From an uncultured Verrucomicrobiae bacterium (lineage in GTDB: Bacteria; Verrucomicrobiota; Verrucomicrobiia; Limisphaerales; J093), in NCBI GenBank assembly GCA_937976685.1, contig CALJWR010000052.1, positions 1 to 32,819 on the forward strand: a DNA stretch of 32,819 nt, written 5' to 3'. Both the position numbers and the translations under genes were made by a program. Positions 1 through 4,728 of the stretch are shown here, piece after piece. Position 1 is the first letter of the stretch. Each line of letters opens with the position of its first letter. The notes under the pieces were generated by a model. The model was not told the origin of the DNA. It did no database searches and saw nothing but the letters and a program-made list of their open reading frames with translations.

Positions 1-3000
1 GACGGCACACCCAATCAGCCTGGCGGCGTGAACATCCTGGCCATCGGCGTCACGCCGGTTCGCGTCGGGAATGCGATTGTGGAACTCGGTCTCGAGCACG
101 AGCAACCGGGCGACCTGATCGGCAATCTCAGCCACAACGGCCAGTTCGCCGTGCTGAACAATCATTCCCGCCCGGAGGATCCGGAGGCGCGCGTCCTGGA
201 CGCGGTTTACGACGATTCCGGCTCGGGCGAACTTCCCTTCTCCCTGCCTTCCGATGGTCCCGGCAGCCTACGGAACTTCCTGGGGCAGCGGAACACCGGT
301 GCTTGGATGCTCACGATGGTGGACAACGCGCTCAGCCAGACCGGCTTCGTGTACAACTTCACCGTCCGCGTGCGCCCCGCGCCCGACCTGCTGATCGGGG
401 TGTACGGCTCCGTACTGGCCAACCAGTGGAATTACTACGTGTTCGACGTGCCGGCCGACGCGAGTCGGATGACCGTCCTGCTCCAGGAATTGTCCGGCCC
501 GCTGAACGTCTATCTGCGCCGGGGCGCCCCGCCCACGCTGACGGACTACGACAAGGCGGCGTTTCTGGTGCCGCCCGGCGGCTCCCTGTCGCTGGGCATT
601 CGCGATGTGCCGCCGCTGCAATCTGGGCTGTACTTCATCGGCTTGTACAACCCGACGGCGGTCACGGTGGACTACTTCCTGCGGGTTATTCTGGAGCGCG
701 AGTTGCCCGGCTCCTTCCGGGGCGATTACCGCAGCACCAATCGCGTGTACCTGAGCGACGACGCGCGCACCAACGGTGTGATCTTCGTCAATGAGGACCG
801 CACGGTGACTGACGTGAAGGTGGGGCTGCGCGTGGACCACGAGCGGGTGTCCGACCTCGATTTTCGCCTCATCAGCCCTCGCGGCACCCGCGCCTTGGTG
901 GTCGAGAATCGCGGCGGGACTAATCTGGCTCAGCTCGGCTACGAGCGGGTGCAGACCAACTTTCATCACGTGGCGCTGACTTACAGCACCAACTCCGGCG
1001 TGGCGGCGCTGTACCTGGACGGCGAACTGCTCGTGGCGCAGGAGGTCGGGGCCTTCAAGCCCGATACCACCCCGGACCTTTACTTGGGTTATGGGCCGAC
1101 CAACGCGGTAACCAGCAACCAATTCCGCGGCCTGCTGGATGAAGTGGACCTCTACGACCGCGCCCTCAGCGCTTCGGAGATTCTGGCCATTTTCAAATAC
1201 GGCGGCGCGGGCAAGCCCGCGGCCGGCCTCGTCAGCCGGTGGGCCTTCGATGGTAACGGCGACGATGCGCAGACCAACAACCCGGCCGTGATCGCCGGGC
1301 CGACCTTTGTCCCAGGTCGGTTCGGTTCGGCGCTCCGGTTCGGCGCGGACGGCGATTTGGTGATCGTCACGAATCAAGGGGGGCTTGATGTCGGCGCCGG
1401 TGGCGGCTTCACGGTGGACGCCTGGGTCAGCCCGTTCGACCTTTCAGCGCCGCGGACGATCGCTGCCTGGACGGATCTGTCGAATCGGGTCGGGGTTGTT
1501 TTCGGCCTGGTTCCGGGGCCGGGTACCAACGCGTTGCCCGGCCTCTTGTATGCCAGCCTGCCGGACGTGGGAGGGCTTTCCAATCGCGTGGTGTTCGCTC
1601 CCCGCCAGGGCTTGATGAGCACGAACTGGCTCCAGACGAATCTCGTGTTCACCGTCCTGATGGACAACACGAACCAAGCCTTGCTGCCCATCAAGTTTGG
1701 CCGGCCGGCCACCAACGCGGCGGGTGCGTTGACCAACCAGTTGATCTCGGGCTTCGAGCAGGTGGAGGCCCGCAAGACGGCCGAGTTCGCAGCCGGCGCG
1801 ACGTTCGAGAATTGGGCCGTCGAGTCGAATCAGGTGGCCGTGCTCCAGTCCTCCCTGGCGCACACGGGCACCAACCTGTTGGTCTTGAAGGACGGCGTCA
1901 TCAGCCGCGATCTGGTCACCGAGGTGGGCAAGGCCTACCGGTTGCAGTGGGTTCACCGGCAGCAACCCGCGTTTGAGGGGATCGTGAGCTGGTGGCCCGG
2001 TGAAGGAGACGCGCGGGATCGGGTGGGCACCAATCACGGCTTGGTTCTGATGAATGTCGCCTACGACGCCGGCATGGTCGGTCGGGCCTTCCGCTTCGCG
2101 AGAAACGCGGGACTGATCGAGGTGGCCACCAACGCGACGCTGAACTTCACCAATCAGCTCACGATGGAGATGTGGTTTCTCGCCGACACCAACCTGCCCT
2201 ACGGCGGCGGCATGCTGGGTAAACGCGAGGATCAGTTCGGCACACCGCCATTTGGCGCGAATTACGGCGCCAGCCTGAGTGCCGCCGGTCTGGAGATTTG
2301 GTACAACGACACCAATCGTTCGAGTGTCCTCTCGGACCCGCCGGCCTTGGGCGGCTACGAACGACTGCGGTTGGCGATGAATCCCCGGACCAACGAGTTC
2401 CACCACTTTGCGGGAACCTTCCGCCAGATGGGGCCGGCGCAGGTCGAGTTGCAAATCTACCTCGATGGCCGGCTTGCAGCGACGCGCATCCTGCCCGGAG
2501 TCTTGCGCGAAACAGTCAACGCCGCGCCGCTGCTGATTGGCGCGACCGTGGACGGCGTGGATGGTTTCAACGGAATGCTGGATGAGATCACGCTCTACGA
2601 CCGCGTTCTCTCGCCGGAAGAGATTGCGCAGATTTACCTGCTCGACCGCGTGGGCAAGGCGGCGCCCCCGATGGCCGCCCGCGGCCAGATGATCCTCAAT
2701 GGAGCTTCCACCAACACGTTCACCAGTGACGTCTCATGGGCCACGAATGCCGTATCATTTCTCGCGACGACGAATCTCACGCGCCTGACCTTTGCCAGCG
2801 TCGCGCCGGGCGTCATGCTGGATTCAATCGAGCTGATCGAACTCGAAGCCAACGTCTTTCTCCCCGAGGAGTCCTTCCAGCCCATCTTGGGCGAGAGCTC
2901 CCTGGGTGAATGGCGGATTGAAGTCACTGACCGTCGCACCGGGGCGACGAATGTCATCGCGCCCCAACTGGTCCGCTGGCGGTTGGAGCTGAGTTACGGG

Positions 3001-4728
3001 CCGAATCTGATTCAGGCCGTGCGGTTGACCAATCACGTGACCTATGGCGACGTCATACCGCTCGGGGGCGTCCGATACTTCTACACCGACGTTCCGCGAA
3101 GCGCCCGCTTCGCCACGAACACACTTCGCTCCGACGGCGTGGTCATGTTGGGCCTCTGGTTTAATCAAGATGGAGTTCCGTTGTTCGATCCGGCCGCCGG
3201 GGACTTTCAATTGCTGACCAACACCGCCGAGGGGATCGCCGTGCTCGCCACGAATGGCGTCTTCCAAGTGGATACCAACGGAGCGGCCCTGTTCCCGCCG
3301 GTGAACCCGCCTCCGCTGGTCCCCGGCCAGCGTTATTACCTGGCCGTCACCAATGACGACGCGGCGACGCCATACACCATCCGGGTGGACTTCGATGCGG
3401 AGGACACGGGGATCTTGGGCCTCACTCCGCTGGCTTACGGCGAGACCATCGTCACCAACATCGCGGTCACCAACGCCCTGCAATACTATCGCTACGACGT
3501 TTCCACGAATGCCGCGGCCGCCTCATTCGAGGTGTACCCGGCCAACGGCAACGTGAACCTCTACCTCCGGAAAGCGAGACCGGTACAGGATCCCTTGCCG
3601 ACGCCGCGGGTGTTCGATTACGCCTCGCAAAATCCGGGTACGAACGCGGAGATCATTCTGGTGACTCAAAGTTCGCCCATCCCGCTGGGCAGCGGCCCGT
3701 GGTACCTCGGCGTCCTCAATGCGGACACCAACGCCGTGGACTACAGCATCCGCGTGGTCGAGATCACCAACGTTGTCGAGGAAATCGTCGTCTTGACCAA
3801 CGCGGTGCCGCGGGCGGACTCCGTTCCACCGGGCCCACTGACGACGAAGTACTTCGTGCTCCACGTTTCCAACTCCCCGCCGAGCCTGCAGTTCGACCTG
3901 ACCGGGCTCTCCGGTAACGCGGTCCTTTACGCCGAACTCGGCGCGAAACCAACCACCAACAGCTTTGTCCGTGCGGATCCGGCGAGCGCGGTCGCGCCGG
4001 GCAAGCTCGTGTTCCGCACCAACGCGCTTCTCCCGTCGCTGAACGGCGAGTGGTACCTCGCGGTCGTTCCTTCTGCCGCCGCTCCGGTTTCCTTCCTGCT
4101 CACGGGTACCTATCCGGCGCCCGACTCCGGAATCACCGCCCTGATCAATCATGTCGCTGCCTCGCGGACACTGGCGGCGGATACCTTTGGCCTGCCGCCG
4201 TTCCTGGACTATTTCAGTTTTGAGGTGCGCCCAGATGACACCACTGTGAGCTTCTCGGTCGCGCCGGTGAACGGCGACGTGGACCTGCTCCTGCGGCGGG
4301 GGGCGCTGCCAGACCTGGCAACATTCGACTACGCGGCCTCAACTACAGGCCCTGGTGCGGAAACCATCGTGGTCACCCCGAACAGCGTGCCCGTCCCGCT
4401 GTCGGCGGGAATCTGGTATCTCGGGGTGGTGAACCAAGGTTTCAATTCCGTGACCTACACGGTTCGCGTGGACGCTTCCGGAGCTGAAGTTTCCATCAAT
4501 CCGGACGTCCGTTTTGCCGACGGCAAACTGACGCTGACTTGGGACGCGGCTTGCGGACTAAACTTCGTGGTCCAGTACGCGACCGTGATTCCGGAGTCCG
4601 GGCCCATCGCGTGGATGGACACGGGGATTGGCGCAGTTTGCGCCGATGGAACCTACTCGTTCACGGACGATCCCGGCCTGACTGGTGTCGCGACGGTGAA
4701 GTTCTTCCGCGTGGTGCTGGTGCCCTAG
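1..4728 (+). CDS. Giant secreted multidomain protein (P-domain, PPC and LamG modules), 5' end outside the window
   Basis: The frame is open from base 1, so the gene starts upstream and only its last 1,575 or so codons are here. Numbering from the GTG at 28, I see the end of one proprotein-convertase P-domain (1-115), a pre-peptidase C-terminal-like (PPC) domain (118-222), the first half of a second P-domain (about 240-311), LamG/ConA-like pieces (312-535), P-domain continuation and a DUF642-like stretch (539-645), a full LamG domain (650-875), a P-domain end near 945-990, then about four PPC-like repeats with W/YYLxVxN cores. The C-terminus resembles the short beta module that closes many verrucomicrobial surface proteins. 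Thr-Asn pairs are very frequent. No catalytic domain is visible. A role in cell-surface adhesion or glycan binding is inferred from the modules only. The odd order of half-domains at 312-535 is treated separately. Confidence 0.85.
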   Translation, partial: DGTPNQPGGVNILAIGVTPVRVGNAIVELGLEHEQPGDLIGNLSHNGQFAVLNNHSRPEDPEARVLDAVYDDSGSGELPFSLPSDGPGSLRNFLGQRNTGAWMLTMVDNALSQTGFVYNFTVRVRPAPDLLIGVYGSVLANQWNYYVFDVPADASRMTVLLQELSGPLNVYLRRGAPPTLTDYDKAAFLVPPGGSLSLGIRDVPPLQSGLYFIGLYNPTAVTVDYFLRVILERELPGSFRGDYRSTNRVYLSDDARTNGVIFVNEDRTVTDVKVGLRVDHERVSDLDFRLISPRGTRALVVENRGGTNLAQLGYERVQTNFHHVALTYSTNSGVAALYLDGELLVAQEVGAFKPDTTPDLYLGYGPTNAVTSNQFRGLLDEVDLYDRALSASEILAIFKYGGAGKPAAGLVSRWAFDGNGDDAQTNNPAVIAGPTFVPGRFGSALRFGADGDLVIVTNQGGLDVGAGGGFTVDAWVSPFDLSAPRTIAAWTDLSNRVGVVFGLVPGPGTNALPGLLYASLPDVGGLSNRVVFAPRQGLMSTNWLQTNLVFTVLMDNTNQALLPIKFGRPATNAAGALTNQLISGFEQVEARKTAEFAAGATFENWAVESNQVAVLQSSLAHTGTNLLVLKDGVISRDLVTEVGKAYRLQWVHRQQPAFEGIVSWWPGEGDARDRVGTNHGLVLMNVAYDAGMVGRAFRFARNAGLIEVATNATLNFTNQLTMEMWFLADTNLPYGGGMLGKREDQFGTPPFGANYGASLSAAGLEIWYNDTNRSSVLSDPPALGGYERLRLAMNPRTNEFHHFAGTFRQMGPAQVELQIYLDGRLAATRILPGVLRETVNAAPLLIGATVDGVDGFNGMLDEITLYDRVLSPEEIAQIYLLDRVGKAAPPMAARGQMILNGASTNTFTSDVSWATNAVSFLATTNLTRLTFASVAPGVMLDSIELIELEANVFLPEESFQPILGESSLGEWRIEVTDRRTGATNVIAPQLVRWRLELSYGPNLIQAVRLTNHVTYGDVIPLGGVRYFYTDVPRSARFATNTLRSDGVVMLGLWFNQDGVPLFDPAAGDFQLLTNTAEGIAVLATNGVFQVDTNGAALFPPVNPPPLVPGQRYYLAVTNDDAATPYTIRVDFDAEDTGILGLTPLAYGETIVTNIAVTNALQYYRYDVSTNAAAASFEVYPANGNVNLYLRKARPVQDPLPTPRVFDYASQNPGTNAEIILVTQSSPIPLGSGPWYLGVLNADTNAVDYSIRVVEITNVVEEIVVLTNAVPRADSVPPGPLTTKYFVLHVSNSPPSLQFDLTGLSGNAVLYAELGAKPTTNSFVRADPASAVAPGKLVFRTNALLPSLNGEWYLAVVPSAAAPVSFLLTGTYPAPDSGITALINHVAASRTLAADTFGLPPFLDYFSFEVRPDDTTVSFSVAPVNGDVDLLLRRGALPDLATFDYAASTTGPGAETIVVTPNSVPVPLSAGIWYLGVVNQGFNSVTYTVRVDASGAEVSINPDVRFADGKLTLTWDAACGLNFVVQYATVIPESGPIAWMDTGIGAVCADGTYSFTDDPGLTGVATVKFFRVVLVP
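961..1641 (+). other. In-frame 681-bp segment interrupting a P-domain, carrying a circularly permuted LamG domain
   Basis: The segment codes for residues 312-538 of the giant protein. The codons just before it (952-960) and its own last three codons (1633-1641) both encode Gln-Thr-Asn, and their DNA matches at seven of nine bases (cagaccaac and cagacgaat). Within it, the second half of a LamG domain (FHHVALTYS to AIFKYG) comes before the first half (LVSRWAFDGN to STNWLQTN). Removing the segment joins ERVQTN to LVFTVLMDNTN, which reads as an uninterrupted P-domain; joining its end to its beginning gives WLQTN-FHHVAL, a normal LamG order. The half-domain assignment rests on pattern recognition, not an alignment. 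Confidence 0.55.

Follow-up and report, generated by a model that had tools for sequence, protein, structure and literature searches.

A circularly permuted LamG domain inserted in a P-domain of a giant bacterial S8 subtilase

The locus and its host gene

The window, meaning the whole stretch of 32,819 nucleotides analysed here, is an entire contig (C52) in a genome bin of 374 contigs. It opens within a frame that encodes 1575 amino acids with Pfam matches to P_proprotein, Laminin_G_3, and PPC, and because its orthologues in the same family, which are 2400–2900 aa long, carry a Peptidase_S8 domain (Pfam), the host is a giant extracellular S8 subtilase of Verrucomicrobia, of which the window holds the C-terminal part. 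The first-pass annotation had called it a giant surface protein. Regarding the assignment to S8 (PF00082), the orthologues show the Peptidase_S8 match and retain the catalytic Asp, His, and Ser motifs (VNDTGV, HGTHVA, and GTS). In the family of the window, f1 (L042–L049, residues ~700–830), GTS is followed by residues other than those of GTSMAAP, with D, H, and S kept.

The N-terminal part of the gene sits on another contig of the bin, C211. The last 513 nt of this contig (G000:C211) overlap positions 1–513 of the window at 95.3%, inside the subtilase gene; the gene is split between the two contigs in the assembly, probably through strain variation. The features of the window region are collected in Table 1.

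Table 1. Features of the subtilase gene and of its interrupted P-domain in the window
Feature	Positions	Strand	Basis
C-terminal part of giant S8 subtilase (P-domains, LamG, and PPC)	1..4728	+	Open frame, orthologues; contig start cuts gene
P-domain, first part (residues 239-320)	715..960	+	P_proprotein positions 2-38, 1.1e-5 alone; furin P-domain match in homologue model
Junction 1, Gln-Thr-Asn, CAGACCAAC	952..960	+	Read directly; in most relatives only TN conserved
LamG C-terminal half (FHHVAL...EILAIF), placed first	961..1200	+	Laminin_G_3 81-150, 1.8e-16; ordinary-LamG profile 135-213
Linker GGAGKPAA between LamG halves	1201..1224	+	Resembles linkers between repeats of tandem LamG arrays
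LamG N-terminal half (GLVSRWAF...NWLQTN), placed second	1225..1641	+	Ordinary-LamG profile 1-136, 1.4e-22
Junction 2, Gln-Thr-Asn, CAGACGAAT	1633..1641	+	Read directly
P-domain continuation, LVFTVLMDNTNQALLPIKF...	1642..1770	+	Contiguous with first part in insert-free orthologues
Beta-rich segment, first half	1771..1965	+	Conserved in orthologues
Ordinary, non-permuted LamG nested in beta-rich segment	1978..2640	+	Laminin_G_3 10-151 at residues 710-876
Beta-rich segment, second half	2689..2835	+	Alignment: halves contiguous in f7 homologues
P-domain, last strands	2860..3003	+	P_proprotein 54-85

The P-domain is interrupted twice. It had been described as simply continuing after the permuted LamG, and it does resume at 1642, but from about 1770 a segment wrapped around an ordinary LamG splits it again, and the end of the domain is not reached until near 3003. 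This beta-rich segment, for which DUF642-like serves as a label and not as a family assignment, gave no Pfam match at window positions 1762–1983, DUF642 included. It is itself a case of nested insertion, as the ordinary LamG separates its two halves; in family f7 the LamG is missing at the corresponding site and the halves are contiguous.

A permuted LamG within a P-domain

The insert between the two junctions is a circularly permuted LamG. Pfam recognizes only its C-terminal half, the N-terminal half alone having no Pfam match, and after the halves are swapped Pfam returns a single joined match over positions 15–150. A profile built solely from 63 ordinary LamGs of the host order matches the insert at 135–213 first and then at 1–136 (86.5 and 71.6 bits); rejoining the halves yields one 170-bit match over 1–213. 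Apart from a residue or two, each half covers what the other lacks, which means that no part of the LamG has been lost or doubled. The insert thus belongs to Laminin_G_3 (PF13385) as a permutant, with both halves present, swapped, and complementary, and with one match on rejoining.

The P-domain around it is recognized in pieces, P_proprotein positions 2–38 lying within window 715–960 and positions 54–85 within window 2851–3009. Natural homologues that lack the insert match the joined P-domain flanks contiguously, at up to 44% identity. Both parts of the original reading, that the LamG halves stand in swapped order inside a P-domain and that removing and swapping them restores both domains, are therefore borne out by these profile matches and homologues.

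Regarding the structure, an AF2 model of the window region (25 sequences) reached a mean pLDDT of 85.5 and a pTM of 0.67. A fold search with this 770-aa model returned a match list filled by the ordinary LamG, and for this reason L121 was modelled instead, a natural minimal homologue whose layout is only P1-LC-LN-P2-end (pLDDT 80.8, pTM 0.64). When compared with solved structures, the L121 model matches the furin P-domain with a Z of 16.0 and an rmsd of 1.9 over 120 residues, running from 4 to 399 of the model and skipping the insert. Lower scores were obtained with the P-domains of Kex2 and the Aeromonas serine protease ASP (Z 14.4 and 12.8), the latter being matched by sequence as well. All three proteins combine an S8 protease with a P-domain, but their P-domains have no LamG insert. 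Together with the profile pieces of the window, the model indicates that a complete P-domain (P_proprotein, PF01483) surrounds the insert.

The insert part of the L121 model (88..303) finds its best match in PDB entry 1ajo (Z 10.8, 157 residues), followed by concanavalin A types (Z ~7.5). The entry is CPA16M-127, an engineered, permuted 1,3-1,4-beta-glucanase of the same fold, whose chain order can be aligned sequentially with that of the insert, although it is a man-made enzyme and is not inserted in another domain. The Foldseek E-values for L121 were weak, with none at 0.001; it is the second-look aligner, taken with the sequence evidence, that carries the structural case. On the predicted structure of L121, the permuted LamG would fold as one ConA-like jelly roll. 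Structure prediction, which had been proposed as a check, thus yields a furin-type P-domain split by an insert that matches a permuted glucanase. For annotators this is a warning, because standard profiles display such a region as half a LamG and a broken P-domain.

Distribution and the P-domain loop in orthologues

The region that spans the junctions has collinear, full-length matches in eight other genomes of the same family, at 49–60% identity. Within the host order, the same elements follow one another collinearly in about 49 of the 293 genomes, from families f1, f44, f54, f15, and f7, a count taken from search-result rows, and 29 frames were checked element by element. In all 29, the LC half starts 0–2 residues past the P1 profile, and the junctions lie at matching profile positions of both LamG and P-domain. 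The arrangement is real, old, and well conserved, its age following from its recurrence in five families and in separate assemblies. As a result, the idea that the locus keeps a fresh, readable record of an event in this genome does not hold; the presence of the same order in many lineages tells against a recent event and leaves the permutation itself untouched.

When the window protein alone was used as a query against the genome-contig collection no match was found, and the family alignment as query found 17 loci. Among 386 other sampled genomes of the phylum there was no match at 1e-22, a threshold that would miss distant cases. Two records call for comment. In L050 (G003:C35) the orthologue lies in two overlapping frames that break near the middle of the LamG N-terminal half, an apparent frameshift or sequencing error. 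L187 (CAMBEJ010000044.1), whose record is titled Akkermansia muciniphila, carries the gene at 47% identity, and the name on this bin is probably wrong.

The P-domain loop that receives the permuted LamG differs among orthologues. It is uninterrupted in those of 11 families (f55, f57, f36, f34, f45, f35, f5, f14, f20, f41, and f52). Two loci, L124 and L130, were moved by eye from script class D to B, because their P2 piece scored too low and yet the joined query matches them contiguously. In f62, f22, f21, f46, f47, f9, f42, and f40 the loop holds a module of ~100 aa that has no Pfam name, and in four genomes it holds the beta-rich, Pfam-unmatched segment known from the window, with or without a LamG. 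The ~100-aa module is conserved and beta-rich, with the motif YDFF.IPD.M.VYYDG...FGPG.ST (L143, L145–L151, L154–L157, and L161; eight families). In the orthologue L152 (G063), a legume-lectin-like domain (Lectin_legB, 1e-12) occupies the same loop at residues 1433–1654 of the frame.

This loop is likely to be a natural socket, at which orthologous proteases have acquired unrelated modules repeatedly, counting as modules the permuted LamG, the ~100-aa module, the segment with its nested LamG, and the legume-type lectin, alongside the uninterrupted forms.

Origin of the insert and its significance

In a tree of 92 LamGs, one clade (SH-aLRT 90) unites 28 inserts of f1, f44, f54, and f7, and the f15 insert lies close to it. 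The ordinary LamGs nested in those proteins stand apart from the inserts, and the LamGs of tandem arrays are near them. An origin from the nested ordinary LamG was considered and is unsupported, the nested LamG belonging to another clade.

The tandem arrays of the host order (e.g., L162, L163, and L170) already present the order LC-linker-LN with the same period: a single array period, taken from the FHHVAL-type strand at the start of the C-terminal half of one LamG up to the equivalent position in its neighbour, can be aligned contiguously over the full insert at ~34–35% identity. A GK motif occurs in 19 of 20 array linkers and is seen in many insert linkers. The arrays themselves are in ordinary phase and lie outside P-domains. 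A search for a donor array of high identity found none, the best reaching ~35%. Where array proteins seemed to match the end of the first P-domain part, the matching stretches proved to be ordinary LamG N-terminal halves with no P-domain there, and they were set aside.

Most likely, the donor was one phase-shifted repeat period of such an array. The insert would then be a single period of ~227 aa, captured one time long ago, with cuts falling before the FHHVAL strand in two neighbouring array repeats, such that the C-terminal half of one repeat, the linker, and the N-terminal half of the next could close into one jelly roll. The new ends of this LamG would lie side by side and so fit a P-domain loop. 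The route would be the known one of permutation by duplication, here in a nested setting. Sequence comparison and predicted structure show the permutation, the intact though interrupted host domain, the conservation across five families, the insert-free orthologues, and the clustering of the inserts; beyond these, there is a good probability that the permuted LamG in the loop of this one P-domain was captured once, anciently, from a tandem array.

The host gene tells a less simple story, and here the idea has to be weighed that a permuted LamG entered this loop independently in f7, f15, and the group of f1, f44, and f54. On the host-gene tree the insert label requires 4 changes, the unconstrained tree scattering the carriers, and the same loop has taken unrelated modules in other families. 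The changes forced by starred branches number at least 2 (3 in a smaller set), and f54 inserts nest within those of f1 while the f54 host gene does not. However, the breakpoints in both LamG and P-domain are identical, the inserts cluster, and a single clade of all carriers is not rejected by the host-gene data (p-AU 0.217), so that separate insertions seem rather unlikely. Given the scatter of carriers in the host tree, the insert may have been lost, the segment may have spread laterally, or insertion may have recurred; the best reading is a single origin and then vertical inheritance, with losses or with some lateral transfer.

A further proposal was the excision of a LamG-coding circle that integrated by a single crossover at microhomology in the Gln-Thr-Asn codons, and a circle opened at the LamG site would indeed yield exactly the observed order. 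Its starting point is correct as read directly: Gln-Thr-Asn stands at both junctions, with seven of nine bases equal, and the two sites are 681 bp apart, a multiple of three (227 codons). Among relatives (16 of 25 rows compared), TN is found at both junctions in most (STN/LTN, TTN/RTN, VTN/LTN, etc.), but QTN at both is confined to the window, and in most relatives the junction codons are no more alike than other xTN pairs. Moreover, TN is very common in these proteins, occurring 40 times in the 1575 aa of the window frame, where composition predicts 7. Of the 780 xTN codon pairs, 277 (36%) agree in at least seven of nine bases, and around two randomly chosen positions the best in-register 9-mer is as good as this in 3.6% of draws. 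Because the double QTN is limited to the window and relatives keep only the frequent TN, the 7/9-bp match records no event, and since the event is old, present DNA identity is uninformative on it. The match is weak evidence at best, and microhomology as a trace of the event is abandoned. A circle excised from an array would give the same product, but it is not needed, as arrays supply the LC-linker-LN order without one, and we regard it as improbable.

That there is no permuted domain at all, only two half-domains pairing elsewhere, for instance by swapping with the nested LamG, is suggested by the complete ordinary LamG ~110 residues downstream in the window protein; it is very improbable, given that in f7 members such as L121 the permuted LamG is the sole LamG of this P-domain and that the model of L121 agrees with one permuted jelly roll. 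An assembly error joining LamG and P-domain pieces, a natural suspicion in a metagenome-assembled genome whose contigs break in this gene amid strain variants, is ruled out for practical purposes by the same collinear order in many independent assemblies from different studies, including contigs of 129 and 433 kb.

The closest precedent is swaposin, the plant-specific insert, in which a saposin with helix order 3-4-1-2 lies within plant aspartic proteases (PMC3320104). In both cases a permuted domain is inserted in a protease and has relatives arranged in tandem repeats, those of saposin in one precursor, prosaposin, and swaposin is cited as a permutation by duplication (PMC3320104). Swaposin, in contrast, is all-alpha and belongs to a plant aspartic protease, whereas here an all-beta LamG sits in the P-domain of a bacterial subtilase for which insert-free orthologues are at hand. 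Concanavalin A, related to favin and peanut lectin by circular permutation, offers a permutation within the ConA-like jelly-roll fold, to which the LamG part of L121 is also matched. Its permutation takes place after translation, by cleavage and ligation, in a free-standing protein (PMC3320104), whereas the permutation of the LamG is encoded in its gene, and the domain is nested. A recent survey keeps domain insertion distinct from circular permutation and describes nested cases (PMC13114784). In the open literature, as far as its incomplete coverage reaches, neither this protein nor any permuted LamG inside a P-domain was found described.

In the secreted protease, the P-domain may act as a structural platform on which the LamG, a putative carbohydrate- or surface-binding module, would be held at a fixed place. 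Natural, gene-encoded permutants nested in another domain rarely come to light alongside both their insert-free orthologues and a plausible type of donor, in this case tandem repeats. Here one bacterial order holds the permutant, the insert-free orthologues, the donor type, and other modules at the same loop, and it thereby becomes testable when permutation, with its adjacent new ends, aids insertion and how often a fixed loop gains modules. If the loop is truly a socket, these proteases would offer a comparative system for the rise and persistence of domain insertions and circular permutations.
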